In this document: piece after piece, positions 2,307 to 18,585 of the stretch | How the letters are laid out: each line of letters starts with the position of its first letter | How positions within the stretch are numbered: position 1 is the stretch's first letter | Virus record (IMG/VR): IMGVR_UViG_3300014499_000217 | Span: 1 to 20,872 of that record | DNA length: 20,872 bases | Direction: 5' to 3' (one strand) | Source of the DNA: a virus | The notes under the pieces: generated by a model | Databases searched by the model: none | What the model was told of the DNA's origin: nothing | What the model saw: the letters and a program-made list of their open reading frames with translations, nothing else | Program-made: the position numbers and the translations under genes

Positions 2307-3230
2307 ATGTACGTTCGCAGCTTACTGCCGGATCTCAACTCGGAGACGATGCTCCCGGCCATCGACGCGGTCATCATGGGCCGTTACAACCGGTACCCGG
2401 AAGAGTACGTGGACGTGTTCAACGTCGAAACTTCGGACCGCTCTGTTGAGCAGACCACCGAAGTCACCGGCTTCGGCCAGTTCGTTCAGATCCCCGAAGC
2501 GCAGGACACCCGGTTCGACCAGCTGCTCCCGGTCTATAACAAGACCTACAAGCACGCGCAGTGGTCGCTCGGCTTCAAGGTGTCCAAACAGGCCGCGATG
2601 AACGATAAGTTCAACGTGGTCAAAAAGGCTTCGATCGAGCTGGGCAAATCCGCCCGCGAGACCGTCGAAGTGAACGCGGCCAACATCTACAACCAGGGTT
2701 TCAATTCCGGCTACCCGGGCCCCGATGGACTCAGCCTGTTCTCGACGGCGCACATTTTGGCCGGCGGCGGCACCCAGACCAACCGCCTGAGCTACGCGAC
2801 CGACCCGGATGTGACCAGCATCCAGCTTGCCCTGACCGACATGCGCAACACCGTCGATCACCGCGGCAAGAAACAGAAAATCGTCCCCAAGCAACTGGTC
2901 TGCGCGCCACAGAACGAATTCGTGGTGGCGGAGCTGCTGGGCGGCACGGACCGCGGCGATACGGCCAACCGGACGATCAACGCGTTCCGCCGCCGCAGCG
3001 GCATGCCGAGCTTCGACAGCTGGATGGTCTATGACTATCTGACCGACCCGCACGCCTGGATGATCCTGGCGGACAACTCGGACACCGAAGTGCGCTTTTA
3101 CTGGCGCGAGAAATTCAACACCGTGGCCGACGTGGACTTCAAGAGCCGCTCGCAGATGATCGCGGGATGGATGCAGTTCTCTTGCGGTTTCAACAGCTTC
3201 TACGGCGCTTACGGGGTGCCTTCCAGCTAA
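2307..3230 (+). CDS. Major capsid protein
   Basis: This is a 307-residue protein of the size expected for an HK97-fold major head subunit. The N-terminal part (about 1-60) is an extended arm ending in TTEVTGFGQFVQIPE. The middle has the characteristic PDGLSLFSTAHILAGGG segment (about residues 138-154), a motif seen in many phage major capsid proteins where a loaded subunit loop carries 'G..LF...H'. The later part (QLVCAPQNEFVVAELLGGT) fits the peptide that describes a stable beta/alpha core, and a late stretch reads HAWMILADNSDTEVRFYWRE. It follows the scaffold and decoration genes with the best leader in the window. It should form the icosahedral shell in the cytoplasm. No signal peptide or protease-cleaved delta domain is evident, consistent with use of a separate scaffold. 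This is one of the surest functional calls here. Confidence 0.88.
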   Translation: MYVRSLLPDLNSETMLPAIDAVIMGRYNRYPEEYVDVFNVETSDRSVEQTTEVTGFGQFVQIPEAQDTRFDQLLPVYNKTYKHAQWSLGFKVSKQAAMNDKFNVVKKASIELGKSARETVEVNAANIYNQGFNSGYPGPDGLSLFSTAHILAGGGTQTNRLSYATDPDVTSIQLALTDMRNTVDHRGKKQKIVPKQLVCAPQNEFVVAELLGGTDRGDTANRTINAFRRRSGMPSFDSWMVYDYLTDPHAWMILADNSDTEVRFYWREKFNTVADVDFKSRSQMIAGWMQFSCGFNSFYGAYGVPSS

Positions 3231-3237
3231 GGCGGCC

Positions 3238-3765
3238 ATGGCACTGCAACCTCAGATCTCGCGGCCGGCATCGACCGGCCTCACGCGCCTGCGCGTCGGA
3301 CCGAACCGCGTTACGGCGGACCGGTCCCTGCCGGCGATGTGCGCGCCCTATCCGGGCGACAAAAGCACCAACGCCAGCAACAAGAACGTGCTGAGCGTGG
3401 ACTGCTCAATGATGGCGACCTATTCACCGGCCGCCGCTCCCACGCAGTTGACGGGAATAACGACTCACGCGCTCGCTCTGTGGAACATTACGGCGAGTGA
3501 AGCGGGCAGAGCGCCGGATGTGATTCCCGGCGACATCTGGGAGTTTCTGTCAAAGGACAACGTAAACGGGTCGAGCGCGGATCCGCTGACGAACTCGGGC
3601 CTTCTGGTGCTTGGGGTTTATGTCACCGGCACCGGGCCATACGATCTGTCGCTGCTGCTCTACAACTCGACCGCGGGAACGCTTTCGACCCCGGCGGCTT
3701 ACATCCCGCTTCTACTGGTGAACCGCTTCAACAACCTGAGCACGGATCCGAACCCGATCCCCTAG
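3238..3765 (+). CDS. Small virion-associated protein of unknown function
   Basis: I do not recognise this 175-residue protein. It starts 8 nt after the capsid gene's stop. The N-terminal third is polar with basic residues (TRLRVGPNRVTADRS) and an Asn/Ser-rich loop. The C-terminal two thirds look beta-rich, with alternating hydrophobics (LLVLGVYVTGTGPYDLSLLLYN). It has two cysteines close together (about 41 and 56), no signal peptide and no obvious membrane helix. Its place between the major capsid protein and tail-connector genes suggests a minor capsid, head-fibre or head-completion role, but that is inference. The next gene begins 3 nt after its stop. Confidence 0.78.
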   Translation: MALQPQISRPASTGLTRLRVGPNRVTADRSLPAMCAPYPGDKSTNASNKNVLSVDCSMMATYSPAAAPTQLTGITTHALALWNITASEAGRAPDVIPGDIWEFLSKDNVNGSSADPLTNSGLLVLGVYVTGTGPYDLSLLLYNSTAGTLSTPAAYIPLLLVNRFNNLSTDPNPIP

Positions 3766-4198: not shown

Positions 4199-5929
4199 AT
4201 GCGGTTCGCTGTCTTACTACTCATCGGCTCTTCGCTTCTCAGCGCGCAGAACTCCTTCAATCCCGCGGGCTCGACGCCCCAGATCTTCTCGAACACGGTA
4301 GACGCCTCCGGCGCGATCGCGTGGTTTGAACCCGTGGTGGCCACCGACCCGTCCGGCGCGTGCACGGTGTACGCGATGAAGTATCAGCAGGTGATCAGCC
4401 TCGCATCGGGGAATATGTTCACGTGCGGGCCGAGCGGCGTGTGGCAGGCGGTGTCCTCGTCGTCGTCTTCTTTCGCCGCGCTCTCCGGCGCGATCGCCAT
4501 CACGCAATTTCCAACAGGCGCGACGGTCAACCAGCTCCCTTACTTCAACGGCGCCGCGTGGGTGCTCGGCCAGCTCGGCGCGAGCCAGATCACGGGGCTC
4601 GGCTCAGCGGCGCTCGTTTCCACTTCCACCTTCGATGCTTCCGGAGCGGCCTCCGCCGTCCTTGCCACAAGCGTGCAGAAGGCGAATAACGGCTCGGACT
4701 TCGCGAACGCTTCCACCACGCGCACTAATTTGGGTGTGGCCATCGGATCGAACGTCGAGGCCTGGTCCGCGGCGCTCGACACCTTCGCGACGATGACGCC
4801 GGCGAACGTGATTCTCTCCAGCGGAACTTACTCAAACCCTTCGTGGCTCACAGCGGTCGCGAACGCGAAAGTGACCGGGCTCGGGAGCGCGGCCCTGCAG
4901 GCGAGCAGCTTCTTCGTGCAGCCGGCCTCTTCGAACACCTATTCCGGATCCACATTGCAGGATTTCGGCGCGGCGGGATTCCGGCCGCCCTACGGGACGC
5001 TGGCCGCGATCCCCGGAACGTGCTCGGTCTGGCAGCTCTATATTGCGACAGACCAGCAGGCCGGCGCCAACATTTACGAGTGCGCGGTGGCGAACACATG
5101 GAGCGCAGTCGGCGCGTCGGCCTCGACCGCGAATCTCGCCGTGGTGCGCGACCCCTCGGGCGACATCGCGACCAATCACCACATCTTCGGAGCCTCCAAT
5201 TCCGTGGGCGTTTCCTCCGCGTGGCTGGCGAACAGTTACAACGCCTCGACCAATGCGTATGTGGGCTCGACCAGCGTCGGGCCGATGGACGGCGCGTCGG
5301 CGGGCTTCATCCGCTGGCCCGCGAATAAATACGCATCGCAGCCGATTCTGCAGGACGGCGCGGGGACTTACTACCTCGACTCGGGCGGCTCCTCGAACAC
5401 CATCACGCTCAACGTGGCCTATCCCGAGTACACCGATAACTCAAACCTTTGCTTCAAGGTTGCATACCCGATCACCGGCGCGGTGACCCTCTTCTCCATC
5501 GATAACGCCGCCACCACCAAGACGCTGCAGATGCCCGGCGGGGTGTCCATGGCGTCCGCCGATGCGCCCGCCGGCACGATCCTCTGCGCGGCCTACAACA
5601 CGACCAGCGCCGTGTGGAACGTGACCTCCATCACGCCGAAGGTGGCGTATCAGAATCGCGTCAACACCTACGCGTCGCAGCAAATTATGAATAACGGGTG
5701 GGAGACGGGGGTGGCCACCAACACCGACCAGGCGGGCTCGATCACGCTCGCGGCGGGTGCGGGCTCCTACACCTTCCTGAACACCGGGTACACGCATGCG
5801 CCGATTTGCAGCATGTTCGACTTCTCGTCCCAGGGGACGGCGGTCACGTTCACGGAAACCGTTCTGGCCCTCACCATCACCGGCACGGGAACGCACCAGA
5901 TCTATTACCAGTGCACGCCGCGAAACTGA
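4199..5929 (+). CDS. Tail-fibre-like protein with Sec signal peptide
   Basis: This is a 576-residue protein. Residues 1-16 form a textbook Sec signal: a basic N-end (MR), a hydrophobic core (FAVLLLIGSSLL) and a small-residue site with likely cleavage at SA|Q17. The mature part has fibre-type modules: ITGLGSAAL at about 131 and VTGLGSAAL at about 225, plus a TRTNLGVAIGSNVEAWSAAL segment. Both are common in phage fibres with trimeric shafts. It also carries two Cys-bracketed short modules ending in a conserved Trp: C55...C76 followed by GVWQAV, and C275...C295 followed by NTWSAVG. The mature chain has eight cysteines, and its end is beta-rich. Start choice is firm: GGAGG at 4190-4194 lies 4 nt before the ATG. 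The neighbour starts 2 nt after its stop and also has a signal peptide. Receptor binding or a secreted adhesin is inferred; which one is not decided by sequence. Confidence 0.82.
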   Translation: MRFAVLLLIGSSLLSAQNSFNPAGSTPQIFSNTVDASGAIAWFEPVVATDPSGACTVYAMKYQQVISLASGNMFTCGPSGVWQAVSSSSSSFAALSGAIAITQFPTGATVNQLPYFNGAAWVLGQLGASQITGLGSAALVSTSTFDASGAASAVLATSVQKANNGSDFANASTTRTNLGVAIGSNVEAWSAALDTFATMTPANVILSSGTYSNPSWLTAVANAKVTGLGSAALQASSFFVQPASSNTYSGSTLQDFGAAGFRPPYGTLAAIPGTCSVWQLYIATDQQAGANIYECAVANTWSAVGASASTANLAVVRDPSGDIATNHHIFGASNSVGVSSAWLANSYNASTNAYVGSTSVGPMDGASAGFIRWPANKYASQPILQDGAGTYYLDSGGSSNTITLNVAYPEYTDNSNLCFKVAYPITGAVTLFSIDNAATTKTLQMPGGVSMASADAPAGTILCAAYNTTSAVWNVTSITPKVAYQNRVNTYASQQIMNNGWETGVATNTDQAGSITLAAGAGSYTFLNTGYTHAPICSMFDFSSQGTAVTFTETVLALTITGTGTHQIYYQCTPRN

Positions 5930-5931
5930 CC

Positions 5932-7530
5932 ATGAAACAACTTCTTTTCGCTCTCCTCCTGATCGCCCGCGCGCTCCTCGCCACCGACGTCTCGGTTCCG
6001 AACATGACGGAGCTGCTGACCAACACCGGCGTGCCCTTCGGCAACGGCGGCCAGGTGGGGTGCTCAACGAACTACTGCGTCTGGGCCACCACTCAAACGG
6101 GTGGCGTCTACACCGGCCACTCGGAACTCGCGGGCTGCGGGATCACGGCGGGGCAATGCGCGGCGACGCCGGTCTGCCTCACCTGCGGCAACGACTTCGC
6201 GCAGTTCGGCTATACGACCGGGTACGGCGCGGCGGCCACGGCGACTTACGTCAACTCGACCACGATCACGGTTGCGGTCGGCACGGCGGGCGCCGGCTAC
6301 TCGGCGACGCACCTGCCCACAATTCTTTTCTCGGGCGGAGCCGGAAGCTGCTCGACCATCACGCCCACGGTCTCCGGAGGCGGCGTCGCGACGATCACCG
6401 CGTCGGGCTGCACCGCCTACACGAGTGCGCCAACGGTTTACATCGGCGGCGGCGCGGAAAAGGGCCAGCCGATCTTCGATCCCACGAACGCGTTTCTCTC
6501 GATCGGCGTCAGTAACCCGACCTACGGTCCGAACGCTTCGGCGGGGCCGGCCGCGATCGGCAACGGCGTCGATATCGATAACTGGGTCTGCCCGATCTCC
6601 GTCTCGGCCGGGGTGGCCACGCTTGGGACCTGCCACAACAACACCTCGATCGCAAACAACTACAACGGCATTCTGTTCGGACGCTTCGGCGGTTGCGGGC
6701 CCGGCACGGTGACCACCTGCATCTGGATGAGTTCAAGGTACTCGAACAGCGACTCCAGCAACTCCGGTTCGCTCGGCGACTACCGGATCCGAATCATCCC
6801 ATACACCACGCCCGGCGGCGTGTGGACGCTCGGGACCGAGTTCACTTACCCATCGACGGGCGGATATCGCATCTGCCTGAACACGCTTCAGACGTGCTCC
6901 ACTTACACCGGGAAAAACTACGCGGAGCTGGACGGCGCTTACGACGTGGTAGCCGGCGCGTTTCTTCTGGAGATCGCTCCGGACACGGCATGCAACACCA
7001 CTTGCAGCGGCACCGGAAACTACTTCTGGCAAAACGAAATCGTCGCGTTCGCGCCGACCGGCACTTATGGCCAGTTCGACGTGTTGGTGCCCAGCGGCAA
7101 CACCGCGCCGTGTGGCTGGAACGAGCATCCAAACGAGATCAACGGGCTCCTCTACTGGACCACGAGTAACTTCACCACCCTGACTTACAACGGGTGCGCG
7201 ACGAGCTTTGGCGTGCCTCCGCTCGACAAAGCGGCGGTGCCTTATTACTACACCCTCGACGGGGCGGGCAACGTCCACATGGCGGCGGATATGGAGCACG
7301 CGTTCTCTGTGACGCAGGTCAACGTGCTCGGGACCGCGGACCGCACGGCCGTCTGCGCGGCGCGCCTGGCGCAGGTCGGCGCCGGATGCTCCGGCGCCAC
7401 CGTGATCTCCGGAGGTTATTCGGCTTTCACGACGCCTTCTTTATTCCCCCTGCTGCTCAAGGACTCGAACGGAAACGCCAGCGTATGGACCCTGAATCCC
7501 ATCCTCACGCTGAGCGGGCGGGTGTTCTGA
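5932..7530 (+). CDS. Cysteine-rich secreted virion-like protein, unknown function
   Basis: This is a 532-residue protein when started at the ATG at 5932. That start gives a clear Sec signal peptide (MKQLLFALLLIARALLA|T, cleavage near residue 17). The frame is open further upstream but only as an overlap with the previous gene. The mature part has 20 cysteines, often in close pairs (CSTNYC, CLTC, CLNTLQTC, CNTTC), which suggests many disulfides and an extracytoplasmic fold. Two GxGYxxxPTV-type repeats (Tyr at about 123 and 163) resemble shaft modules of phage fibres and bacterial adhesins. The second has a Cys in place of the usual Gly-rich turn. A middle part resembles a propeller or lectin-like region (NEIVAFAPTGTYGQFDVLVP). 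It is coupled to the preceding signal-peptide gene (2-nt gap). No catalytic motif was recognised; adhesin, receptor binder or exported host-surface modifier are all possible. Confidence 0.82.
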   Translation: MKQLLFALLLIARALLATDVSVPNMTELLTNTGVPFGNGGQVGCSTNYCVWATTQTGGVYTGHSELAGCGITAGQCAATPVCLTCGNDFAQFGYTTGYGAAATATYVNSTTITVAVGTAGAGYSATHLPTILFSGGAGSCSTITPTVSGGGVATITASGCTAYTSAPTVYIGGGAEKGQPIFDPTNAFLSIGVSNPTYGPNASAGPAAIGNGVDIDNWVCPISVSAGVATLGTCHNNTSIANNYNGILFGRFGGCGPGTVTTCIWMSSRYSNSDSSNSGSLGDYRIRIIPYTTPGGVWTLGTEFTYPSTGGYRICLNTLQTCSTYTGKNYAELDGAYDVVAGAFLLEIAPDTACNTTCSGTGNYFWQNEIVAFAPTGTYGQFDVLVPSGNTAPCGWNEHPNEINGLLYWTTSNFTTLTYNGCATSFGVPPLDKAAVPYYYTLDGAGNVHMAADMEHAFSVTQVNVLGTADRTAVCAARLAQVGAGCSGATVISGGYSAFTTPSLFPLLLKDSNGNASVWTLNPILTLSGRVF

Positions 7531-7531
7531 A

Positions 7532-8491
7532 GTGGCCACTTACGGCCAAACCAAACTCCGCCTGAAGCAGCAGTTCCCGAGCGTCCCTCTGGAGCTGCTC
7601 GACGGGTGGATCATGGACCGCTACCAGGCGCTGCTCGATCAGCTCCCATGGAAGCGCATCGAAAGCAACATCACGATCCAGGCTCCGAACGAAGTAAACG
7701 TCGGCACGGTGACGATAGAAATCGGCTCGAACGTCGTGCTCGGGGCCGGCACCGCGTGGACCTCCGCGCAAACCGGCTGGTACTTCCGGCTGCCGGGCGA
7801 CGACGCGTACTTCGCCTTCACCTACGTCAGCCCCACCCAGGGAACGCTCGACCGGCTGTACGACGGATTCTTCGGCGGCCAGCAGGAAGGCGCGAGTCCC
7901 CCGCCCCCGGTTGTGCCGATGTCCGGACTGAGCTATCAGCTGGACCAGGCCATCTACCCGCTGCCCGCGAACGTCCGGCTGATCCAGGGCGTGCGGGATC
8001 TCGATAACGATTACGATCTCGCGAAGATGAGCCAGCAGGAAATGAACGCGTCGGTGCCTTCGCGCTCGGATTACGGGGACTCGAAATTCTACTCCATCAC
8101 CATGGATTCCGCGACCGAGCCGCCGGTCATGCAGATCGAACTGTACCCCATCCCGATGGAACTGACGGGCTACGCGGTGCAGGTTATCTGCGAGGACATC
8201 AACTTCGGACCGGGCCAGACCAGCGTCGCGGCGCTGCCTTTCGTGCGGCCGGCCGCGCTGAACTCCGGCGTCTCGGCCGACGTCTGCCTGTGGATGGAAA
8301 AACTCGCGCAGGCGGAAATGTACGAAAAACAATTCCTGACGCGGCAGCAGGAGATGATCCGGACGGAGAGTTTCCGGATCGGAGCGACGCGCATCGAAGT
8401 CGCCGACCACATGACGCGCCACCGGCAGGACCGTCTGCGCCGGGGATCGAGCTGGAGCGGATGGCTGGGCGGCCAGGGACCGGGAGCTTAA
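7532..8491 (+). CDS. Putative head-tail adaptor / tail tubular A-like protein
   Basis: This 319-residue protein starts at GTG 7532, 1 nt after the preceding stop. The start is helical (TKLRLKQQFPSVPLELLDGWIMDRYQALLDQL), as in connector proteins that begin with an 'LR..l....P....l..wi...y' helix pair. A beta part follows with YPLPANVRLIQGVRDLDNDY (about 142-161) and ELYPIPMELTGYAVQVICED (about 203-222). A helical end follows, with a long basic tail (RHRQDRLRRGSSW). The 'YPLP..V..I......LD....' and 'I.LYPiP...g' signatures also occur, in looser form, in the genes at 8493 and 10394, so the three probably share a fold. By gene order it corresponds to a dodecameric adaptor under the portal, or to T7 gp11. 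No enzyme motif is seen. Family naming is by pattern and position only. Confidence 0.7.
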   Translation: MATYGQTKLRLKQQFPSVPLELLDGWIMDRYQALLDQLPWKRIESNITIQAPNEVNVGTVTIEIGSNVVLGAGTAWTSAQTGWYFRLPGDDAYFAFTYVSPTQGTLDRLYDGFFGGQQEGASPPPPVVPMSGLSYQLDQAIYPLPANVRLIQGVRDLDNDYDLAKMSQQEMNASVPSRSDYGDSKFYSITMDSATEPPVMQIELYPIPMELTGYAVQVICEDINFGPGQTSVAALPFVRPAALNSGVSADVCLWMEKLAQAEMYEKQFLTRQQEMIRTESFRIGATRIEVADHMTRHRQDRLRRGSSWSGWLGGQGPGA

Positions 8492-8492
8492 A

Positions 8493-9200
8493 GTGCAACT
8501 TTCGGACATGCGCACGCGCGTGCAGCAGCGCGTGAACGAACTGACCGGCACTTACTATTCGACCGCCGAAATCAACAGCGCGCTGAACGAGGCGCAGCGG
8601 CTTTTCGTCCTTCTGACGCTGTGCCTCGAAGTGACGGCCGCGTTCACCCTCACGGCGGCGGTGACTTTCTATCACATGCGGACCACCTTCGAGGACTGGA
8701 TACTGCCGCTTCGCGTGACCACTCTCGGAGGCTCGAAAATCTTTCCTTCGGAGCTGGAGGACCTCGACTCGCTCGATTCTGGCTGGCAGGCCTCGCCCGG
8801 CGCGCCCGTCCGCTACGCGTCGCTCGGCTTCGATTTCTTCGCCATCTACCAACAGCCGGCTGCCGCCGGCACGGTGGTCAACATCACCTACGCGCAGCAG
8901 CCGCTCGTGATGGCGGCCGACACCGACACCCCCCAGATCCAGCAGGAATTTCACCCGGCGCTGGTCGCCTACGCCATCTACCGGGTGCGCATGAAGGAAG
9001 GCGCGCAGGAATTTGCGAAGACCATGCCCTACTTCAATTCGTTCCTCGACGAGGCGCAGAAGTGCGGCGAGTACGTCCGGGCCCGCAATATCGGCGGCGG
9101 GTATGACATTCTGCCGTTCGAACTGGCGCGGTTCGACCGTTCCAAGGTCGCCAGGGCTTCTGCAACTAAACGGCCGGAAGGGGCGAACAAGCAAGCGTGA
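8493..9200 (+). CDS. Putative connector / adaptor protein, first of a homologous pair
   Basis: This 235-residue protein starts at GTG 8493, with GGGAG at 8482-8486 placed 6 nt upstream. The N-terminal helix reads LSDMRTRVQQRVNEL and is followed by YYSTAEINSALNEAQRLF. This 'LxxMRxRV...(Y)(T/S)xxEIxxxLNEAxR' pattern is typical of phage adaptor and connector proteins. The centre (about 88-131) has ELEDLDSLDSGWQASPGAPV, then RYASLG, then IYQQPAAAGTVVNITYAQQP. It aligns residue by residue with the protein at 10394. The C-terminal helices (QEFHPALVAYAIYRVRMKEG) are as expected for ring-forming connectors. It overlaps the next gene by 4 nt (GTGA at 9197-9200). Role: probable head-to-tail joint in the cytoplasmic virion assembly line, inferred from fold signature and position. 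Confidence 0.75.
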   Translation: MQLSDMRTRVQQRVNELTGTYYSTAEINSALNEAQRLFVLLTLCLEVTAAFTLTAAVTFYHMRTTFEDWILPLRVTTLGGSKIFPSELEDLDSLDSGWQASPGAPVRYASLGFDFFAIYQQPAAAGTVVNITYAQQPLVMAADTDTPQIQQEFHPALVAYAIYRVRMKEGAQEFAKTMPYFNSFLDEAQKCGEYVRARNIGGGYDILPFELARFDRSKVARASATKRPEGANKQA

Positions 9201-10390
9201 GTACATTAGCAATCACGCCGGGCTCCGGCGCACTCGTTAGAACCGACCTGGGCTCCACTTCCGGGGCGCACATGCAGGTCACCAAGCTGGGCGAATCCGT
9301 GATCGGATCGGATAACCTGATTCCGGCCAGCGTGGCGGCCGGCCTTCTGGTCCAGGTGAGCGGGGTGACCGGGAGCGTGGCCGTAACGAACGCCACACCG
9401 GGCAACCTGCGCGTGGACGCCTCAGGCGTTACTGTGCCGGTGGCGAACGCGGGCGGCGGATCTCTCACGGTGAACGCTCCCGTGGGCACGCCGGCGGCGG
9501 TCAGGATCTCGAACGGCGCCGCTTTCGTCGATACCCTTCCGGTGTCGATCGCAGCCACGGTGCCGGTTTCCGGCACAGTCGGAATTTCCGGGACGCCAGC
9601 CGTCGCGCAGTCGGGCACGTGGAACGTGGGCGCGCTGACCTCTATCACCAACCCGGTGACGGTGACCGGCACGGTGGCCCTGAGCGGGACGTCTCCGGTC
9701 TCGGGCACGGTCACGGCCAACCAGGGGACGCCGGCGGCGGTTGCGAACGCATGGCCCATCGAGGTCTCGGACGGAACCAACACGGCGGGCGTCACCACGG
9801 TGAGCGCGTCGAAGGGGCTGAACGTCGTGCCGCTTTCGATGCCGGCGGGCGCGGCCTTGAGCCAGCAGGACAAAACGGCATTCACCGAAGGCACGACGTT
9901 CGCGAACCCAATCGCCGGCGTGTATAACGATTCGCCCGCGGGCAACCCGGCGGCGAACCAGGCGAGCGTGGTGCGCATCACGCCACTGCGCGCGATCCAC
10001 AGCAACCTGCGCAACCAGGCCGGCACGGAAGTCGGGACGGCGGCGGCTCCCCTGCAGGTGGCGAACGCGCCGTCGCCATCGGGCTTCTGGAAGGCCCACG
10101 TTTCGTTCACGGCGTCGCAGACCGGCCAGACCATTTACGCGCCGGCGAGCGGCAAGACGGTGTACGTCGAAGGGCTCATCATCATGCCCACCACGGCGGG
10201 CGACCTGGTGCAGGTTTTCGACAACACCAATTCCAGTTCGACCATGCTGTTCTCCGGGTACCCGCCTTTGTCGGGAGTGGTGATCACGCCTTCGCGGCCC
10301 ATTCCGCTGGCGGCGGTGAACAACATTCTGACCTACACCACGGGAGCGGGAGCGGCGGGCGACATCACGGCATGGGGCTACGCGGCTTAA
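9197..10390 (+). CDS. Repetitive tail-fibre-like virion protein
   Basis: This 397-residue protein starts at GTG 9197 inside the stop codon of the previous gene, with GGAAGGGG at 9176-9183 upstream. Residues about 45-200 consist of short beta repeats rich in Val, Ser, Thr and Gly, such as VPVSGTVGISGTPAVAQSGT and VTVTGTVALSGTSPVSGTVT, which suggest a shaft. A following segment (VTANQGTPAAVANAWPIEVS and DGTNTAGV) is a recurrent phage module. AGTEVGTAAAPLQVAN comes next, and then a globular C-terminal domain (about 295-397) with FTASQTGQTIYAPASGKTVY that ends in WGYAA. The chain has no cysteine and, unlike the fibre genes at 4199, 5932 and 15722, no signal peptide. It likely is a fibre or receptor-binding component. 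Its place between two homologous adaptor genes is unusual. Confidence 0.78.
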   Translation: MSTLAITPGSGALVRTDLGSTSGAHMQVTKLGESVIGSDNLIPASVAAGLLVQVSGVTGSVAVTNATPGNLRVDASGVTVPVANAGGGSLTVNAPVGTPAAVRISNGAAFVDTLPVSIAATVPVSGTVGISGTPAVAQSGTWNVGALTSITNPVTVTGTVALSGTSPVSGTVTANQGTPAAVANAWPIEVSDGTNTAGVTTVSASKGLNVVPLSMPAGAALSQQDKTAFTEGTTFANPIAGVYNDSPAGNPAANQASVVRITPLRAIHSNLRNQAGTEVGTAAAPLQVANAPSPSGFWKAHVSFTASQTGQTIYAPASGKTVYVEGLIIMPTTAGDLVQVFDNTNSSSTMLFSGYPPLSGVVITPSRPIPLAAVNNILTYTTGAGAAGDITAWGYAA

Positions 10391-10393
10391 GTC

Positions 10394-11044
10394 ATGCTGC
10401 TATTGCTGCTGCCACAAGGCCCCGCGATCGCGGGCGTCGATCTGGCCAACACCATCAACGATATTCTGCCGACCCTCGGAGCGTCCGGCATCGGGGATCT
10501 CGACTGGTGCACGCAGGCGGAACTGTATCAGTGGGCGGATGAAGCGGCCAAACGCCTCTCGCATCGCGTGGGCGTCTTCGTTACGCGCGACACATCGACC
10601 AACTTACTGATCGGCGAAGCGACTTACCCGGTTCCCACGGGCCACGTGGCTACGGTTCATGTGACGGTGCTGCCCACGTCCAAGCTGCTGCCTTCGAGCG
10701 TGCAGGAGCTGGCGGCGCTCGATGCGACATGGCCGGCCTCGACGGGACCGATCACGCGCTATTCGATGGACGCGTCCGGGATCGGCACGATCACCGTGTA
10801 CAAGATTCCCACGGCCACGGGAGTACTCGCCATCATCTACCACCAGTTTCTGCCGCAGATCCAGTCGGGCGCGAGCGCCATCCCGGTCTGTTCCCCCGTG
10901 GCGGATTACTTCGGCTACACCATGCTCGCCGGAGCCAGGCGCAAGGAATCGGACCAGACCATGACGGACATGGCGGACCACTTCGACCAGCGCGTGGCCA
11001 TGTATGAGAAGGTTTTCGCGCACTACTTCGGGGAGGGCCAGTAG
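10394..11044 (+). CDS. Putative connector / adaptor protein, second of a homologous pair
   Basis: This is a 216-residue protein. The helical part WCTQAELYQWADEAAKRLSH corresponds to the STAEINSALNEAQR helix of the gene at 8493. The central part (about 103-150) reads QELAALDATWPASTGPITRY, then VYKIPTATGVLAIIYHQFLP, and aligns well with that gene: shared LxxLDxxWxAxxGPxxRY, YxxPxxxGxxxIxYxQxxP. Helices then follow (YFGYTMLAGARRKESDQ). The ATG at 10394 gives an odd N-terminus (MLLLLLPQGPAIAG) and has no good ribosome-binding site. This leaves the start uncertain: it may be coupled to the gene before it, or the real start may be elsewhere. The short Leu run is not a convincing signal peptide because it has no basic end. 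Role: connector or neck protein, by homology to its neighbour and position. Confidence 0.74.
   Translation: MLLLLLPQGPAIAGVDLANTINDILPTLGASGIGDLDWCTQAELYQWADEAAKRLSHRVGVFVTRDTSTNLLIGEATYPVPTGHVATVHVTVLPTSKLLPSSVQELAALDATWPASTGPITRYSMDASGIGTITVYKIPTATGVLAIIYHQFLPQIQSGASAIPVCSPVADYFGYTMLAGARRKESDQTMTDMADHFDQRVAMYEKVFAHYFGEGQ
11032..11036 (+). promoter_or_regulatory. Ribosome-binding site deciding the GTG start of the propeller gene
   Basis: GGAGG lies 8 nt before the GTG at 11045, which itself directly follows the TAG (11042-11044) of the previous gene. The site lies inside the preceding coding sequence and supports the GTG rather than a later start. Confidence 0.6.
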
Positions 11045-14000
11045 GTGAGCTACAAGCGCGAGTCGAAGCGGGTCCTCTCCGGATCGTTGAACCTTCTGCA
11101 GCCGGGTGACAAGATCCCGGACTCGGACGGCACCCAGATTGAGAACTGGCGCGTCGACCAGTCGGGCGCGCTGGTGTCGCGTTCGGGGATGGCGTTCCTC
11201 TGGACTTACGTTGACCAGGCCAACCTCTACGTGCAGTCGATGTCGCGGCGCGGCGGGACGTTCTATTACGGCGCGGGCACGTATCTTTACCGGAGCGGCC
11301 CGACCGCCATCCAGACCGGCTTCGACGGCAACCCGATCGGCGCGATCGCGTACAACGGCTACTCGTGGTTCATGAATCAGAACCTGCGCTGCAAGGACGG
11401 CCTGAACCCCACGACCGGCTTGCCCCAGGTGACCAACTGGGGGATCGCCGCGCCGACCAACGTGATTCTCCCGTCTGGAGAAACCATCGACCCCGTGGGC
11501 CTGGTGGGCACTTACCAGTGGTACTTCACCTTCGTTTCGGCCGACGGCACTGAGTCGAACCCATCCAAGGCGAGCGCGGCCTATGCCTTGCTCGGGAGCG
11601 GGGACGTGATTATGACCGTGCCCAACTTCTCGCCCGATGCGCAGATTGTGGGGCGCAACGTGTATCGCTCGGGCGGCACGCTGGGGCAGGCATACCGGGT
11701 GAGCGCCGGGATCACGATCAACGACAACACGACCTACGTGTTCACCGACACGATGAACGACCTGAATGTCACCCTGCTCGGGATCCCGATGCCGATCAAC
11801 CATGATCTGCCTCCGGCCTGCGCGGGCGTGTGCGGCCCTTACCTCGGGACCTTCTTCGCGTGGAACGGCGTGGTGGCCGGCCAGAGCTACGTGAACCGCA
11901 TGTGGTACTCGCTCCCGAACCTGCCGCAGTACTTTCCGGGCGCGGCGCTGACCACGGGGCAGTGGTTCGATGTGGGCGACGACGGTGAGGCCATCGTCGC
12001 CGTTGTACCGCACGCGCGCATGCTGGTGATCTATAAGCAGCGCTCGATCTGGCGATTGATTGGCGACCCCTACACGGGCTACCTGGAGCGCTCGGATTCG
12101 ACGACCGGAGCTCTCGCCGTCAACGGCGTTTGCAACGCCGGGCAGATTGACTATTTCATCGGCACCGAGGGGGTTTACAGTTTCGACGGGGATCACGCGG
12201 CGAAGGTCTCGCCGCTGCTCGATCCGCTGTTCCGCGGCGCTTCGGCCACGCCCGTCTACATCTCCGATTCGCTGACCACGATGCCCATGAACTACGGACT
12301 CGCGGCGCAGGCCTCGATCGGCTACGCGGCCGGGCGGCTCTATTTCAGCTTTGCGGAGCAGGGCCAGACCTACAACTCGATGACGTTGATTTATCACGAG
12401 GCGTCCCAGCGCTGGTACACCATGCGCTACTTCCCTTCCGGCTCGTTCGACGGCGGCCTCTCGCTGGGCTTTGGGTGCTTCCTCTACGCCAACCCCACCA
12501 TGCAGGTGGGCGGCCTGGGACGCGTCATGCAACTCGAAACCGGCACGGCGGACTCCGGCGTTTTCATTGGAGGAACGCCGATCGATCTGGCTTACCAGTC
12601 GCGCTACGAGGACTGCGGATCTCCGGACAACCAGAAGATGTACCTCGACGTCACGATCGAGGCCGCATGCGGGAGCGCGGTGACGGTGATGGTGGTCTAT
12701 AACAACGGCGCGGGCGGCAACGTGACGCTGGGGACGATCCCGGTCGGCGCGCGCGGAAAGGCGACGTTTCCGCTCGGGACCGATGGAGTGCTCGCCTTCA
12801 ACATGGCCGTGCGCCTCCAGTCGTTCTCGACCGCGCCGGTGACCATCTACTCGGTGTACTTCAGCTATTACGTCGAGGCGCGGCTGACTGAAACCGTCTC
12901 CACTATTCCGGTCGATCTGGGAAACGGCAAGGTGAAGCAGGTCAAGGAAGTTCAGGCGGATCTCGATTGCTCGACCGGCCCGGCGGTGGTGACGGTGCAG
13001 AGCGATCTGCCGGGCAACCAGATCGTGACGCGCCAGACCCTGACGGCGGCGCAATCGACCGGGCGGCGCATCTACCAGATGCCGACCTCGCAGACGTGGG
13101 AGGGACGCCTGTGGCGCTTCTCGATCGACGCGCCGACAAATTTCCGGCTCTACAGCCTGCGGATTCTGATGCGCGTGATGGCTGTGTACGTGGAAGCCTA
13201 CGAGGCCGCGGCGGGGTTCCTGTGGGATTCGATGGAGCAGGACTTCTCGCGGCTGAAGCGCTATCCGCCGGACCAGTACGACGATCCGATCAAGCGCGCG
13301 CGTAACCTCCAATTCGACATCGAGGCGGACGGGGCCATCACGGTGAACCTCTACTCGGACCTGCCGAACCCGATCAATCTGGCGTCCCCGCAATTCACGG
13401 CCACAATCCAGACGACGGGCAACCGGCGTATCGTCACGCTGCAACTGCCGCAGGGCCTGACGCCCATGATCGAGGGCAAACTGTTCCGCCTGCAGATCGC
13501 GGGAGCCCAGCAATACAAGCTCTTCGACGCGCGGCTCGAAGTGATCGAGATGGGCGTTTACATCGAGGCGTACGAATCCGCCGGCGGCGCGACTTACGAT
13601 TCGCGCGAGATGGACTTCGGCTCGGCCAAGGTGAAGGAAGCGCGCGAGCTGCAGCTGGATGTCGAGACCACGGGCAATATCACGGCGCAGCTGCTTTCCG
13701 ACATGCCCGGCTTCACGATGCAGGTAGTCGCGTCCACCACCTTCAACACGCAATCGACGACTACCGGGCGCAGGAAGATCCACCTGGTGCTCCCGCAGCT
13801 GGAGGGGCGGCTGTGGCGGCTGCTGATCACGGGACCGAGCGCCTTCCGGCTTTACGGAGCGCGCCTCGAAGTCCGCGCCTTCGGCGAATACTACACCTCG
13901 GACGAAGCGGGCCAGGGCGGCTTCTGGGATTCGACCGAGCTCGATCTCGGCGCGCGCAACGCGAAAGAGATCCGCGATATCGAGTTCGAGCTGTGGGCGT

Positions 14001-15148
14001 ACGCGCCGGTCACGGTGACGCTCTACCTCGATCTGCCGGGCAACACGATGACGGCGCAGCTCTCCGCCGTGCTCCCCGCGACCAACGGCCGCAGGAAGTG
14101 GAGCGTGCCATTACCTCAGAACTCGCCCTACCTGTACGGCCGGCTTCTGCGGGTGACCGTGTCGGGCTATGGGGCGTTCAAGCTTTTCGGCGCGCGCGTG
14201 AACTGGCGGCCGGTGGGAACGTACGTCGAAGCCTATGAGGGCGTCGCCGGGGCCATCTGGGATTCGACGGTGGTTACGCTTGCGGACGGCAAGGACGTGG
14301 TTCTCGACCAGGTGCGGTTCGAGATCGATGCGCCGAATGCGGTCACGTGCTCGATCTACACCGACCTGCCGGGCGAGACCCTGACCCTGCGCAAGACCCT
14401 GATGCTGACCACGGGAACCAGCGGGCGGAGCTGGGCCACGATCGAGATGCCGGGCGGCATCTCCGGAGACACCCAGGGGCGCATCGCGCGGGTGACCCTT
14501 TCGAGCACTTCCGACTTCCGGGTCTATCAGGGCCAGTTCTTTGCGCGCCGCATCGGGCGCTACCTCGCGGCCAACGTCTCGGACACATTCCGCACCCTCG
14601 ACTGGGACGGCGGCATGGAACGGGTCAAGGGCTTCAAGAAGATCGAAGTGGACGCCCAGACCGATGGCCCGGTCACATTAACGTTCTTCACCAATCAATC
14701 CACCCAGACCGGCGGCGGCACGATGGCCGCGCAATACACCACGGTCATCAATACCGGAGGCCTCCGCGAGACGCTCGAATTCATTCTGCCGTACAACATG
14801 CGCGGGCGGCTGATGCGCATCGAGATCGGCGGCGCTGCGTCCGGGAGATTGTACGGCCTGCGCGTGTGGCTGCGCCCCTTGAACGAACCGGGCGCGAAGT
14901 GGGAGTGGGCGGCCTTCACGCTCGAAGAGTCCGAAGCGATCGCGCAGTGGAAGCCGCTCCCGGTCGAACCGACTCCGGACGCGTTTCAGTGGTCGGATCT
15001 GCCGGTGCCTCCGACCGCGCCGCAGTGGAGCTGGCAGGATTTCACGGTGAAGCCCACCGACCCGCAATGGACGTGGGGAGAGTTCAACGTCGAGAGCACG
15101 TCTGAGACGTGGGAGTGGGTGGATATCCCCATGGACCAGATTCAATGA
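11045..15148 (+). CDS. Giant beta-propeller tail protein (tail tubular B / nozzle-like) with tandem repeats
   Basis: This is a 1367-residue protein, much larger than T7 gp12 (about 794 residues). It starts with a phage-type opening (LNLLQPGDKIPDSDGTQIEN...ALVSRSGM). About 1-500 reads as a propeller: YVNRMWYSLPNLPQYFPGAA, then VPHARMLVIYKQRSIWRLIG (Trp at about 336), and GVYSFDG at about 376. This closely follows the 'rlfv.G...n.v.yS......f....dG......v....L.v.k..siw.l.G' pattern of podovirus tail proteins. From about 608 come six tandem domains of 107-124 residues, with a seventh, degenerate one before them, each starting near (V)Y(V/I)EAYE. The last 83 residues are six Trp-rich mini-repeats. 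No signal peptide. It is probably the tail nozzle or hub contacting the fibres, with the repeats extending outward. The propeller assignment is strong; the repeat function is unknown. Confidence 0.82.
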   Translation: MSYKRESKRVLSGSLNLLQPGDKIPDSDGTQIENWRVDQSGALVSRSGMAFLWTYVDQANLYVQSMSRRGGTFYYGAGTYLYRSGPTAIQTGFDGNPIGAIAYNGYSWFMNQNLRCKDGLNPTTGLPQVTNWGIAAPTNVILPSGETIDPVGLVGTYQWYFTFVSADGTESNPSKASAAYALLGSGDVIMTVPNFSPDAQIVGRNVYRSGGTLGQAYRVSAGITINDNTTYVFTDTMNDLNVTLLGIPMPINHDLPPACAGVCGPYLGTFFAWNGVVAGQSYVNRMWYSLPNLPQYFPGAALTTGQWFDVGDDGEAIVAVVPHARMLVIYKQRSIWRLIGDPYTGYLERSDSTTGALAVNGVCNAGQIDYFIGTEGVYSFDGDHAAKVSPLLDPLFRGASATPVYISDSLTTMPMNYGLAAQASIGYAAGRLYFSFAEQGQTYNSMTLIYHEASQRWYTMRYFPSGSFDGGLSLGFGCFLYANPTMQVGGLGRVMQLETGTADSGVFIGGTPIDLAYQSRYEDCGSPDNQKMYLDVTIEAACGSAVTVMVVYNNGAGGNVTLGTIPVGARGKATFPLGTDGVLAFNMAVRLQSFSTAPVTIYSVYFSYYVEARLTETVSTIPVDLGNGKVKQVKEVQADLDCSTGPAVVTVQSDLPGNQIVTRQTLTAAQSTGRRIYQMPTSQTWEGRLWRFSIDAPTNFRLYSLRILMRVMAVYVEAYEAAAGFLWDSMEQDFSRLKRYPPDQYDDPIKRARNLQFDIEADGAITVNLYSDLPNPINLASPQFTATIQTTGNRRIVTLQLPQGLTPMIEGKLFRLQIAGAQQYKLFDARLEVIEMGVYIEAYESAGGATYDSREMDFGSAKVKEARELQLDVETTGNITAQLLSDMPGFTMQVVASTTFNTQSTTTGRRKIHLVLPQLEGRLWRLLITGPSAFRLYGARLEVRAFGEYYTSDEAGQGGFWDSTELDLGARNAKEIRDIEFELWAYAPVTVTLYLDLPGNTMTAQLSAVLPATNGRRKWSVPLPQNSPYLYGRLLRVTVSGYGAFKLFGARVNWRPVGTYVEAYEGVAGAIWDSTVVTLADGKDVVLDQVRFEIDAPNAVTCSIYTDLPGETLTLRKTLMLTTGTSGRSWATIEMPGGISGDTQGRIARVTLSSTSDFRVYQGQFFARRIGRYLAANVSDTFRTLDWDGGMERVKGFKKIEVDAQTDGPVTLTFFTNQSTQTGGGTMAAQYTTVINTGGLRETLEFILPYNMRGRLMRIEIGGAASGRLYGLRVWLRPLNEPGAKWEWAAFTLEESEAIAQWKPLPVEPTPDAFQWSDLPVPPTAPQWSWQDFTVKPTDPQWTWGEFNVESTSETWEWVDIPMDQIQ
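12866..14887 (+). repeat. Six tandem protein-level repeats of about 110 residues
   Basis: Units start at residues about 608, 715, 839, 949, 1060 and 1173 of the propeller protein (nucleotides 12866, 13187, 13559, 13889, 14222 and 14561). Each has the order YxEAYE...(F/I)WDSxxxDL, a Lys-rich Val/Ile helix or strand with a 'E(L/I)xxDIExxGxVTVxLYxDLPG' core, a Thr-rich strand pair ending 'TGRRxxxxxLP', and 'EGRLxRLxIxGxxxFRLYGARLEVRxxG'. An earlier section (about 512-607; YEDCGSPDNQKMYLDVTIEA) looks like a diverged seventh copy. The repeats differ too much at DNA level to be recent duplications. The second unit has a longer linker (KRYPPDQYDDPIKRAR). Confidence 0.82.
14897..15148 (+). repeat. 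C-terminal Trp-rich mini-repeats (six units of 12-16 residues)
   Basis: The last 83 residues of the propeller protein divide into units that begin KWEWAAFTLEESEAI, QWKPLPVEPTPDAF, QWSDLPVPPTAP, QWSWQDFTVKPTDP, QWTWGEFNVESTSE and TWEWVDIPMDQIQ. Each has an opening Trp, in four units a second Trp two residues later, then a hydrophobic/Val step and a Pro/Thr/Glu-rich linker. The tail is acidic and Pro-rich, so it is probably an extended peptide with periodic aromatic anchors. Confidence 0.8.
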
Positions 15149-15161
15149 CGAGGGTGAACTG

Positions 15162-15725
15162 ATGGCCCAACTGCCGCAGAACGCCCGCACGGCGCTGGAG
15201 GTGCCGGTAGTGCCCGGCCTGCCGGCCAACGTGCGCCATACGCTCAACGACAGGCTGCGCACGATCGCACAGCGGATCGACTCGCTCACCCCGGCGACGA
15301 CGTCCACCACGACGAGCGCGAGCTCGCCCGCATCGACGACGCCCACCGCGGCGGCGCCGTTTTTCATTCTCTCGCCGGTGGCGCTGGCGATAGCGGCCAT
15401 CAACCTCGCAGGCGCGGCGGCGAGCTGCCAGATGGTGGCGCTCACGATTCCGGTGACTACCATCCAGAACCCGATTAATATTCCTGCCGGCGGCGCGCTG
15501 CTCTCCGTCGTCATCGCGCAGGACTCAACCGGCGCGCGGGCGTTCGCGCTCGATACGGCGTACCTGACGGCGTTCGGAAGGTGGGGGATTACGGCGGCGA
15601 ACCTGGCCGCAAACGTCTCGACCGCGCCGAACTCTCAACTGGCGCTGACCTTCGCTTCGGACGGGAACGGCAACCTGACGCTGCTGAACACGTATCCGCC
15701 GACCCTGATTGCGACAGCCCAATGA
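15162..15725 (+). CDS. Small fibre-like virion protein with Thr/Ser/Pro linker
   Basis: This 187-residue protein has GAGGGTGA at 15150-15156 upstream of the ATG at 15162. The N-terminus (about 1-42) holds a short helix (VRHTLNDRLRTIAQRIDSLT). It is followed by a low-complexity Thr/Ser/Ala/Pro linker (about 43-66), then a hydrophobic Ala-rich stretch (FFILSPVALAIAAINLAGAA). The C-terminal domain (about 105-187) has GGALLSVVIAQDSTGARAFA and resembles a phage module with a 'G..l...i.QD.tG.R....' core found in fibre-associated proteins. No signal peptide starts the protein; the hydrophobic stretch could be buried rather than a membrane segment. Its stop overlaps the start of the tailspike gene (ATGA at 15722-15725), so the two are probably made in step. 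It may connect the tailspike to the tail, but this is inferred from coupling alone. Confidence 0.75.
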   Translation: MAQLPQNARTALEVPVVPGLPANVRHTLNDRLRTIAQRIDSLTPATTSTTTSASSPASTTPTAAAPFFILSPVALAIAAINLAGAAASCQMVALTIPVTTIQNPINIPAGGALLSVVIAQDSTGARAFALDTAYLTAFGRWGITAANLAANVSTAPNSQLALTFASDGNGNLTLLNTYPPTLIATAQ

Positions 15726-18577
15726 AACTACTTCTCTGTTTTGCTTTCGCTCTCTCGCTGCCTGCCCAGTTCCCGAACGCGGTTCCGCGATCGCAATCCG
15801 CCGTGGATGCGGACACGCCTTCGATAAAGACCTTCGGAGCCAAAGGGGACACCCAATTCTATTGGGCCGCTTTCTCCACCAGCGCCGGATCAACCGCCGT
15901 CTCGGTGACAGGGCTCCAATCGACCACGAACACGGCCGCGATCACGGCATCAAGCGCGGCGCAGCTGATCACCTACGCTTCCACGCCGCAGACGAACTTC
16001 GCGGGCTATCTGATCCAAAACCCCGGCGGTCCGGACCAGGAGCAGGTCACGTGCGTGGTGTTTGCGCTGTTCAACTGTCTGGCGGTCTACTCGAAGAACC
16101 ATCCCGCCGGCGAGACCGAGCAGCCTGCCGTTTTCTTCCCCGGCGACGTGGGCAAACAGATCCGCATCGCCGGCGCGGGCCCGGCGACGAACCCGACGTG
16201 GCACACGCTGGTTGCGCCGGGCGGCCTCACAGAGACCACCACGGCGATTACCTGTCCAACCCCAGCTTGCCAGGGGACGATCAGCGCATCGGGGACCCAG
16301 ACGGCCGGCCAGCTTCAGTTTCTGGCGTGGAGCTATGACAACAGCTTCACGTGGAGTATCTGGGGGAGTAATAACGCGAGCTTTTCCGGCGAGAGCATGG
16401 TCCATACCGCGACCGTCGCCGGTTTCCAGATCACGAGCGGCGCCGGATGCAACTCGACGGGCTGCTGGAACTCCCGCGACATTTACACGATCACCAACCC
16501 CGCTTATGCCTACTACCGGGTCAAGACCATCGACGGGGTGAGCGGCACGCATGCGCTGACGGGCATCGACATCGTCGGCGTCGGCCCGGTGCTGGCTTCG
16601 ACCATCGCGACCTACGTGGATACCTTCCACGTGACGATCGCCGCGCCGGCGGCGGCCACCGCTTCCCAGGTGGCGGGGATGTTCGGGACCGACGACACCA
16701 AGGCCACCCAAAACGCGCTGGCCGGAGTGGCGACGGCCGCGCAGCCGCCGTGGGGCGCGCCAGGTCAGGGGATGTCGAACAAACTCTACGTGCCGAGCGG
16801 CACTTACTGGCTGTCGAGTTCGATCAACAACGAGATCTCGGGCGAGCTGGACGTGGAGGGCACAGGCTCTTCGGGTAGCACTTTCATTTTCGATCCGGCT
16901 ATGACGGCGGCGACCACCACGGATGCGGAGATGGGCACGATCCCGTACCTCTGGTGGCAGAACGGCTCGAACGGATACGACTACGGCTCGATCCTGCGGA
17001 AACTGACGATCAACTGCAACGAGGTGGCGGCCGCGGTGTGCCTCTACATGACCGTGCCGCAGGAGTACTCCGGACTCGATGAGGTGACCGCCGAATTCTT
17101 CTATGGGCAGAAGGGCATCTTCGTCGAGGGCGGCCAGAATTTTTCATTCCGCAAGGTCAACTCGATCGGCGCGTACCGGGCCTTCCCCCAGCAGATGTGC
17201 TACCTGACGCAGACCGTCACGCCGTCGTCATCTCCGCAGACCGTGAGCGTCAACTCGACGGCCATGTGGACGACCGGCGCGCAGGCGGACGTCGGCTGGC
17301 TGACCGCGACGCGCGAACAGGGGCTCACCATGACGGTGATTGACGGGACGCACCTCTCGGGCACGTACCTGAAAGCGCACTCGATCAGCGATCCGCTGCA
17401 CCACACCAACATGCCGATCGGCGTGGACCTGAATAACATCTACGTTGGCTTCCACGACGACCAGAGCACGCGAACGGGCACGACGCAATCGGGCGCGGGA
17501 GACGGCATCGGGACCCGCATCCAGTGCTGCGTCGGAGAATTCAACGACCAGCACGCCGAGGGCGCGATCGCGACGCTCGACCTCGAAGGAGCCACCAGCT
17601 CGGTCGTCACCGGCTCCAGCGCGAACTACAACACGGCCGTTGCGATCGCAAATTACTCAACGGGGGACACCCAGGCCTCGAACACCGGCGGGGCGCGAGG
17701 ATTCGGGCAGTGGTTCGACGGCGTCACGGGGACGGCGGACCAGGGCTTCGGATCGATGCTGCACGTGGCGGTCGGGGACACAGTCACGATCGACAACCGG
17801 GGCAGCCCGTTCTACGGCGAATATAATTTCTTCGGCGCGCTCCAGGTGACCGGCGAGGGCGTAACCATGTCGCCATGGATACCGGGCTCCCTGGGACCGC
17901 CCAACACAACCGGCAACACGGCAAGCATCATCGGCGGCTTCAGTAATCCGATGGGTCTGCTGGCCGCTCAGAACTGCACCGCCGGCGGCGTCTTCATGAT
18001 CGCCGGCAACAACTACACGGGGACGAGCGGAGTGGCGCGGTCGGGCACGTATCCATCCCCCTGCTCGCCGACCTACGGCAACGCCGCGGGGTTCGCCGTG
18101 ACCGCGAACAACAACACGGTGCTGAACCGCCTGATGTTCGGGAGCGCGGCGGGGAGCGTGCTCGACTACGGCCTCACGGTGAACTGCTTGGGCTTTGGCA
18201 ATCCGCTATGGTCCACAGGGCAATGGAACTACCGGTGGTGCTCGGACGGCGCGGGCGGGGTGAACGTGCACCTGCAAGCGATACAGTACGGCGGCAGCTG
18301 GACGGACATCCTGGACCTCAATGGAGCGACAGCGCAGGTGACAGCGCCGGGCCTCGTCTCGGGCGCGCTGGCGACGCCGGGCTCGGTGCTGGTGGACACC
18401 GGCACGGGCGCCGCGGGTTCGGTCGAGGATGGGACGGCGCCCGGCGTCGCGACATTCATCGGCGGGACGCTGCCCTTCAGCGGGACGATTCCGCTGGCCA
18501 AGCTGACCACCGGCGGCTCGGCAGGCTCTGAGACGGTGGTGAACGGACTGATTACCGCCGTGGTGCCACCCACTTGA
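15722..18577 (+). CDS. Beta-helix tailspike / pectate-lyase-like protein with Sec signal peptide
   Basis: This is a 951-residue protein when started at ATG 15722 (the frame is open upstream only within the previous gene). Residues 1-15 are a Sec signal (MKLLLCFAFALSLPA|Q). SIKTFGAKGD (about 34-43) and GTDDTKATQNAL (about 322-333) are the two halves of the pectate-lyase-3-type tailspike motif, here separated by roughly 280 residues. KLYVPSGTYWLSSSI (about 354-368), ELDVEGTGSSGSTFIF and later GIFVEGGQNFSFRKVNSI are the expected rungs of a right-handed beta-helix. The C-terminus (SETVVNGLITAVVPPT) matches a common fibre end. About 15 cysteines remain in the mature chain. The active-site residues of a depolymerase cannot be fixed by reading. 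Role: probably host-glycan binding and/or cleavage. GAGGA of the next gene overlaps its stop. Confidence 0.85.
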   Translation: MKLLLCFAFALSLPAQFPNAVPRSQSAVDADTPSIKTFGAKGDTQFYWAAFSTSAGSTAVSVTGLQSTTNTAAITASSAAQLITYASTPQTNFAGYLIQNPGGPDQEQVTCVVFALFNCLAVYSKNHPAGETEQPAVFFPGDVGKQIRIAGAGPATNPTWHTLVAPGGLTETTTAITCPTPACQGTISASGTQTAGQLQFLAWSYDNSFTWSIWGSNNASFSGESMVHTATVAGFQITSGAGCNSTGCWNSRDIYTITNPAYAYYRVKTIDGVSGTHALTGIDIVGVGPVLASTIATYVDTFHVTIAAPAAATASQVAGMFGTDDTKATQNALAGVATAAQPPWGAPGQGMSNKLYVPSGTYWLSSSINNEISGELDVEGTGSSGSTFIFDPAMTAATTTDAEMGTIPYLWWQNGSNGYDYGSILRKLTINCNEVAAAVCLYMTVPQEYSGLDEVTAEFFYGQKGIFVEGGQNFSFRKVNSIGAYRAFPQQMCYLTQTVTPSSSPQTVSVNSTAMWTTGAQADVGWLTATREQGLTMTVIDGTHLSGTYLKAHSISDPLHHTNMPIGVDLNNIYVGFHDDQSTRTGTTQSGAGDGIGTRIQCCVGEFNDQHAEGAIATLDLEGATSSVVTGSSANYNTAVAIANYSTGDTQASNTGGARGFGQWFDGVTGTADQGFGSMLHVAVGDTVTIDNRGSPFYGEYNFFGALQVTGEGVTMSPWIPGSLGPPNTTGNTASIIGGFSNPMGLLAAQNCTAGGVFMIAGNNYTGTSGVARSGTYPSPCSPTYGNAAGFAVTANNNTVLNRLMFGSAAGSVLDYGLTVNCLGFGNPLWSTGQWNYRWCSDGAGGVNVHLQAIQYGGSWTDILDLNGATAQVTAPGLVSGALATPGSVLVDTGTGAAGSVEDGTAPGVATFIGGTLPFSGTIPLAKLTTGGSAGSETVVNGLITAVVPPT

Positions 18578-18580
18578 GGA
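18576..18580 (+). promoter_or_regulatory. Ribosome-binding site of the acetyltransferase gene
   Basis: GAGGA overlaps the stop of the tailspike gene (TGA 18575-18577) and lies 5 nt before ATG 18586. It supports the ATG over the in-frame TTG at 18574, which would sit before the site. Confidence 0.6.
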
Positions 18581-18585
18581 TCTGT

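Follow-up and report, generated by a model that had tools for sequence, protein, structure and literature searches.

Tailed-phage assembly is, in the textbook view, wholly cytoplasmic, and we know of no tailed phages that send fibre proteins through the host membrane for folding. The virus sequence studied here, from a group of Acidobacteria phages in soil, raises the question of why three large proteins of a phage structural operon would begin with Sec signal peptides. We analysed the entire IMG/VR virus record IMGVR_UViG_3300014499_000217 (20,872 bases; hereafter, the window), which is probably a genome fragment. An initial annotation had described the genes starting at 4199, 5932, and 15722 as fibre or tailspike-type genes with Sec signals, and had offered several meanings for them. 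Our favoured reading, to which we give a probability of about 0.45, is that they encode exported receptor-binding or adhesion proteins that would be oxidatively folded and would join the virions at lysis.

Signal peptides in the structural operon

The window is a single co-directional operon, which runs from scaffold-like genes through internal-virion-like genes at its end. From the capsid, adaptor, and other families, it appears to be a P22/SU10-like podovirus module. The features relevant to the question are as follows.

2307..3230, + strand: major capsid protein (phrog_371, PF25209), signal-free; the query for finding relatives
4199..5929, + strand: Sec-signal fibre-type protein, 576 aa, 8 Cys in the mature part
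4199..4246, + strand: signal peptide MRFAVLLLIGSSLLSA^Q of 4199; sister phage equivalent MRLPILLLIASSLFA^Q
5932..7530, + strand: Sec-signal, Cys-rich protein, 532 aa, 20 Cys; homologue of a chromosomal secreted host protein
5932..5982, + strand: signal peptide MKQLLFALLLIARALLA^T of 5932, less canonical, with Arg near its end
7532..8491, + strand: neck/adaptor-region protein, which closes the hypervariable slot
8493..9200, + strand: SU10-type adaptor (PF24175)
9197..10390, + strand: conserved structural protein without a signal
10394-11044: second adaptor-like gene
11045..15148, + strand: large conserved structural protein without a signal, possibly nozzle-like
15162..15725, + strand: signal-less protein, 187 aa, with an N-terminal 'NDRLRxI' motif common to the equivalent gene of most relatives
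15722..18577, + strand: Sec-signal tailspike-type protein, 951 aa, with IKTFGAKGD and a fibre-like C-terminus; 15 Cys in the mature part
15722..15766, + strand: signal peptide MKLLLCFAFALSLPA^Q of 15722; sister phage equivalent MTKLLLSLLLPLAVFA^Q

The N-termini of the three proteins were as quoted in the initial annotation, and all three were marked by a rule of our own, used in place of SignalP, that looks for a charged n-region, an h-region, and an A-x-A-type cleavage site. By this rule, the elements of a Sec signal cleaved by signal peptidase I (n-region, h-region, and small-x-small site) are present at the true start. The window contains 19 genes, and none of the other 16 was positive. The background of the rule was low: among 1476 shadow ORFs it marked 9 (0.6%), and within the three proteins themselves it responded to 0.1-0.2% of internal stretches. 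The signal of 5932 is the weakest and least canonical of the three (LLIARALLA^T). A lipobox, [LVI][ASTVI][GAS]C, was absent by inspection from the cleavage sites of all three. The protein of the second adaptor-like gene also has a hydrophobic N-terminus, MLLLLLPQGPAIAG, which is kept in relatives (MLVLLLPQGPALAG, MPILLFPQGAAALG); it has no positive charge and fails the rule.

The start of 4199 is preceded by a GGGAGGG Shine-Dalgarno sequence, that of 5932 lies 2 nt past the preceding stop, and that of 15722 overlaps the preceding stop (ATGA). The longest ORF of 5932 opens at GTG 5698, a position within the upstream gene. Wrong start codons for the three genes were ruled out by this operon spacing and by the sister phage described below.

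Gaps between the signal genes and their neighbours are short, with medians of 12 nt on the upstream side and 0.5 nt on the downstream side, and a sigma-70 consensus scan, whose consensus may not fit the host, found no promoter-like site between 3200 and 19000. With such gaps and no sigma-70-like promoter found, the signal genes would be co-expressed with the virion genes; they lie in the late structural operon, as podovirus tail fibre and tailspike genes do. The tight packing and the absence of promoter-like sites argue against independent lysogenic-conversion genes, and the genes do not look like morons, which are inserted between phage genes with a promoter and terminator of their own. Downstream, the gene at 18574-19287 has a TTG start that overlaps the tailspike stop and a weak PHROG head-morphogenesis match; similar genes adjoin internal-virion-like genes in several relatives.

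Signal genes in related phages

Used singly as queries, 4199, 5932, and 15722 found no matches among viral contigs, nor did 4199 and 15722 among phage records. Relatives were recruited via the capsid protein. This search yielded 55 viral contigs along with three contigs from MAGs. Of the latter, two carry the label Bryobacteraceae or Bryobacterales and one is labelled Streptosporangiaceae; this last one is perhaps misbinned. Of 257 genomes from the same order, 15 gave matches to the capsid family, some of them weak. In one of these, the capsid locus lies on a 100-kb contig with host genes on both sides and an integrase-like gene at one edge; thus, at least some members of the clade are temperate phages of Bryobacterales (Acidobacteriota). 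The phage loci in Bryobacterales genomes again carry signal genes in the same region. Dozens of viral contigs and an integrated prophage carry the module, which makes a domesticated element, one of the meanings first offered, unlikely.

The closest longer relative, the sister phage G001, has a capsid protein 91% identical to that of the window, and identity is 68-91% across the capsid, adaptor, and nozzle-type genes. The signals are conserved in the homologous slots: all three slots of G001 have one (MRLPILLLIASSLFA^Q, MRALLLFLAALPLAA^Q, and MTKLLLSLLLPLAVFA^Q). The proteins behind them match 4199 over its first 35% only and do not match 5932 or 15722. The N-terminal 212 residues of 4199 are common to the sister protein and the remainder is swapped, an arrangement of conserved N-domain and variable body that was not seen for 5932 and 15722. 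Signals persist though bodies are replaced. The genes that are hypervariable between the sister phages are the signal genes plus those at 3238 and 15162, as expected of receptor-binding proteins. The exported class is indeed distinct, as had been claimed: its members are the large hypervariable genes, whereas the signal-less 9197 is conserved at 68% identity over 99% of its length.

We defined the slot as the interval from the post-capsid genes to the adaptor. Over all loci, 40 of the 61 slot genes were signal-positive, and the 152 control genes gave none (capsid 0/58, homologues of 7532 0/40, of 8493 0/30, and of 11045 0/24). Among the genes upstream, 18 of 460 were positive. When only called starts were used, the counts were 27/54 in the slot against 17/631 (p = 3e-22). 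In 35 loci, the interval from capsid to adaptor is complete; 22 of them encode at least one signal protein downstream of the capsid gene, and L029 has an additional one, seen by eye, beyond this count; the slot and locus counts include related phages, and the events are not independent. Together with the low background of the rule, the slot and control counts bear out the claim that the signals are beyond chance and rule out chance hydrophobic N-termini. The remaining 13 of the 35 phages have no rule-positive signal protein in the module; thus, export is dispensable. Signal genes, one of them collagen-like, also occur upstream of the capsid gene (in L004, L012, L018, L032, L035, L042, and others); these could encode lysis proteins or form a further exported slot.

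In eleven slot proteins, the signal is followed by a mature part that starts with an invariant Q, a domain of about 70 residues (NKMHxAGAWSSTxTYNSQDLV), and then unrelated bodies. The domain weakly resembles CBM5/12 and, in the PDB, gave a weak match to the tail fibre chain of a phage (8ke9, E = 0.008); its AlphaFold model is weak (pLDDT 57). Similar domains occur inside signal-less homologues of 11045, so that what stands behind a signal in slot proteins is contained in the large structural protein of some relatives. This order of a conserved N-terminal domain, presumably for attachment, and variable C-terminal bodies is the usual fibre architecture. A second N-terminal motif, CPQGYxLxGGxC, comes after the signal in five proteins. 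The predicted cleavage of slot proteins is often at A^Q, like that of secreted proteins of the host group. Some slot proteins contain enzyme or lectin domains (GDSL lipase, Laminin_G_3). The bodies of the signal proteins mix phage fibre modules with modules of host secreted proteins.

The initial annotation had held that homologues starting downstream would speak against its signals. Such homologues exist for other slot proteins (in L031 and L058 the protein begins 'M-CPQGY...', against '...FAQQ-CPQGY...' where a signal is present), and none was found for 4199, 5932, or 15722. The tailspikes of L076, with a signal, and L074, without one, have an N-terminal region in common, and a DUF2341/laminin-G type protein has a signal in L028 and none in L019. 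The signal-less slot homologues start at or near the mature N-terminus, which shows a modular signal and not wrong starts. As homologues exist with and without it, the signal is a module that can be detached from fibre-type proteins. The signal-less homologues in the same slots are among the evidence for one of the meanings first offered, virion parts added outside the inner membrane.

The position after the 11045 homologue and the NDRLR-motif gene, here called slot 3, has a signal in the window, G001, G006, G014, and G015 and none in G002, G007, G008, G010-G013, and G016. The 15162 protein is proposed to be a docking protein for tailspikes. In G007, G008, and G016, no separate tailspike follows the NDRLR gene, which in these relatives is long, at 284-441 aa (L069:2569-3705, L070:1-16000, and L077:785-2110); other relatives have a short NDRLR gene and then a separate spike. 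These gene lengths suggest that docking domain and fibre undergo fusion or fission.

Cysteines and host-type modules

Cysteines tend to be paired in proteins whose folding takes place in an oxidising compartment. We counted cysteines in the mature parts of 42 non-redundant complete signal proteins, and 33 of 40 cases had an even, non-zero count; among 187 control proteins of the same phages, the count was even in 52 of 132 (Fisher p = 1.5e-6, with automated gene calls and predicted cleavage sites). The cysteines of the signal proteins often form closely spaced pairs. The pairing holds for the signal class as a whole; in the window, the counts of 4199 and 5932 are even and that of 15722 is odd. 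A number of fibre-type proteins without a signal contain one cysteine or none; the signal-less tailspike of L074, with 10 Cys, shows that this does not hold for all. Cysteine parity thus gives export independent support at the level of sequence. The predicted export of the signal proteins is well supported; translocation and periplasmic folding are what we infer from it.

Two modules link the window to proteins of the host group.

4946..5134, + strand: C-x20-C module of 4199, 'TCSVWQLYIATDQQAGANIYECAVANTW', approximately residues 250-312; common to Bryobacterales secreted proteins
6226..6456, + strand: fibre-like repeat module of 5932, about 77 aa, residues 99-175; an insert of the phage copy that the host homologue lacks

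Matches to 4199 were found in up to 97 of the 257 Bryobacterales genomes, mostly within the C-x20-C segment, and in the host chromosomes it was this module alone that was matched. Most of 10 checked host ORFs with the module have candidate signals. In the case of 5932, a near full-length homologue lies in a host chromosome (38% and 31% identity in two stretches). It has its own signal and 16 Cys, adjoins the rpoA/ribosomal-protein operon, and is outside any phage. The capture of host surface proteins by the phage, also among the meanings first offered, gains evidence from this homologue, and 5932 is the only one of the three with such a counterpart. A second Cys-rich, 5932-like protein is encoded beside a fibre-like protein on a small contig of the same genome (L126:3080-6359), which may be a phage remnant or a host surface locus.

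The description as fibre or tailspike-type stands for 4199, on account of its repeat patterns, and likely for 15722, and fails for 5932, which is mainly a relative of the host secreted protein: by its sequence, it belongs with the secreted proteins of the host and is no plain tail fibre. Neither 4199 nor 15722 matched a family in Pfam, PHROGs, or NCBIfam, and 5932 gave only weak matches to structural-protein repeats. For 15722, no homologues were found in viral contigs, PDB sequences, the 257 host genomes, or phage records; its AlphaFold model, made without an alignment, has a pLDDT of 32.

These data bear on two alternatives. The hydrophobic N-termini might be uncleaved assembly or anchoring helices, or artefacts of start assignment, as the signal calls are rule-based and the segment is absent from some homologues. 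This is highly improbable in view of the canonical n/h/c structure with frequent A^Q, the signals on homologous host proteins, the even-cysteine signature, and the conserved, operon-coupled starts. It is also conceivable, if rather improbable, that the class is mixed, with 15722 and 4199 as exported virion spikes or fibres and 5932-like proteins as captured host proteins with an independent role. The different ancestry of 5932 speaks for such a division, as does slot 3, which follows the NDRLR docking-type gene and in relatives holds tailspikes with or without a signal; however, operon, signal type, and cysteine pairing are common to all three, and 5932 contains an inserted fibre-like module.

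Possible roles of the signal proteins and comparison with known systems

Since lysis frees cytoplasmic proteins anyway, a signal brings a benefit only if the protein acts before lysis or folds in the periplasm. The cysteine result favours folding as a purpose of export. Action before lysis, for which signals matter most, would suit a further reading, which is doubtful in itself and ranks close behind the favoured one: the signal proteins would be late-expressed secreted or surface effectors (free depolymerases, adhesins, or receptor blockers) and not virion parts. Receptor blockers would protect the progeny and exclude other phages. The chromosomal homologue of 5932, the occurrence of the 4199 module mostly in exported host proteins, and the GDSL lipase and Laminin_G_3 domains of some slot proteins agree with such effectors; against them stand the lack of a promoter-like site or gap of the signal genes' own, the signal-less homologues in the same slots, and the tail module of the window, which has no other large hypervariable gene for the tailspike role.

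We favour receptor-binding proteins of the virion because the signal proteins are large and hypervariable and have signal-less homologues in the same slots. In this mechanism, podovirus-like phages of Bryobacterales would make hypervariable receptor-binding or adhesion proteins with cleavable Sec signals. After crossing the inner membrane in an unfolded state, these would be freed of the signal, often by cleavage at A^Q, and would form disulfides while folding in the periplasm. In the cytoplasm, DNA-filled heads, neck, and nozzle would be assembled from signal-less proteins. At lysis, the particles would traverse the periplasmic pool and acquire their fibres or spikes; attachment would probably be made by short docking domains at the N-terminus, directly behind the signal. 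The generalisation that tailed phages of Acidobacteria finish their virions outside the cytoplasm, by Sec export, periplasmic oxidation, and attachment at lysis, with detachable signals and host-derived surface modules, is tentative, with somewhat less than even chances.

If true, an extracytoplasmic stage would be added to tailed-phage assembly, the use of disulfide-stabilised host surface modules as receptor binders would be explained, and signal peptide plus cysteine parity would become a finder of receptor-binding proteins for uncultured soil phages. If the proteins are secreted effectors instead, the late operon doubles as a surface-modification cassette, which is likewise unexpected.

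In the open-licence literature, we found no published precedent for signal peptides on virion proteins of tailed phages, which does not by itself prove novelty. The nearest is a study of rumen Bacteroides phages with one or two signal peptides per genome (PMC5723332), which in its passages on them does not call these virion proteins.

The window proteins resemble the fibres and tailspikes of P22/SU10-like podoviruses in where they sit in the structural operon, in joining a conserved N-domain to a hypervariable body, in their fibre repeats and beta-helix-like sequence, and in having an SU10-type adaptor nearby. They differ in carrying signal peptides; to our knowledge, fibres and tailspikes of that type fold in the cytoplasm and have none. 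Signals were also rare in the module of five cultured or deposited phages with related capsids (5 of 99 genes, mostly from one pelagiphage).

Virion proteins with Sec signals are known from filamentous phages, which assemble at the membrane without lysis; M13 pIII and pVIII have such signals, and pIII is disulfide-bonded. The window proteins share the signals, their virion membership being our proposal, but belong to a tailed-phage module, which includes capsid and adaptor genes and has a relative integrated as a prophage. Exported proteins encoded next to tail genes are known from superinfection exclusion, as in the receptor-blocking lipoproteins of the T5 Llp type. The window proteins are instead large (532-951 aa), fibre-type, embedded in the operon, and present in several slots, and have no convincing lipobox.

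The secreted Bryobacterales proteins (the 5932 homologue and the C-x20-C proteins) are similar in signal, cysteine pattern, and sequence, whereas they are chromosomal and stand-alone, and the 5932 homologue has no fibre-like insert. Pelagiphage HTVC023P (29263-31338) and its relatives have the same capsid family and signal proteins in the structural region, one of them with a Cys-pair motif; their sequences are unrelated to those of the window, with homologues in pelagiphages and a few others. HTVC023P has two such proteins (L065:23442-25514), and one family recurs in pelagiphages and roseophages, once annotated as OmpA family. Other phage groups may thus hold similar exported proteins.
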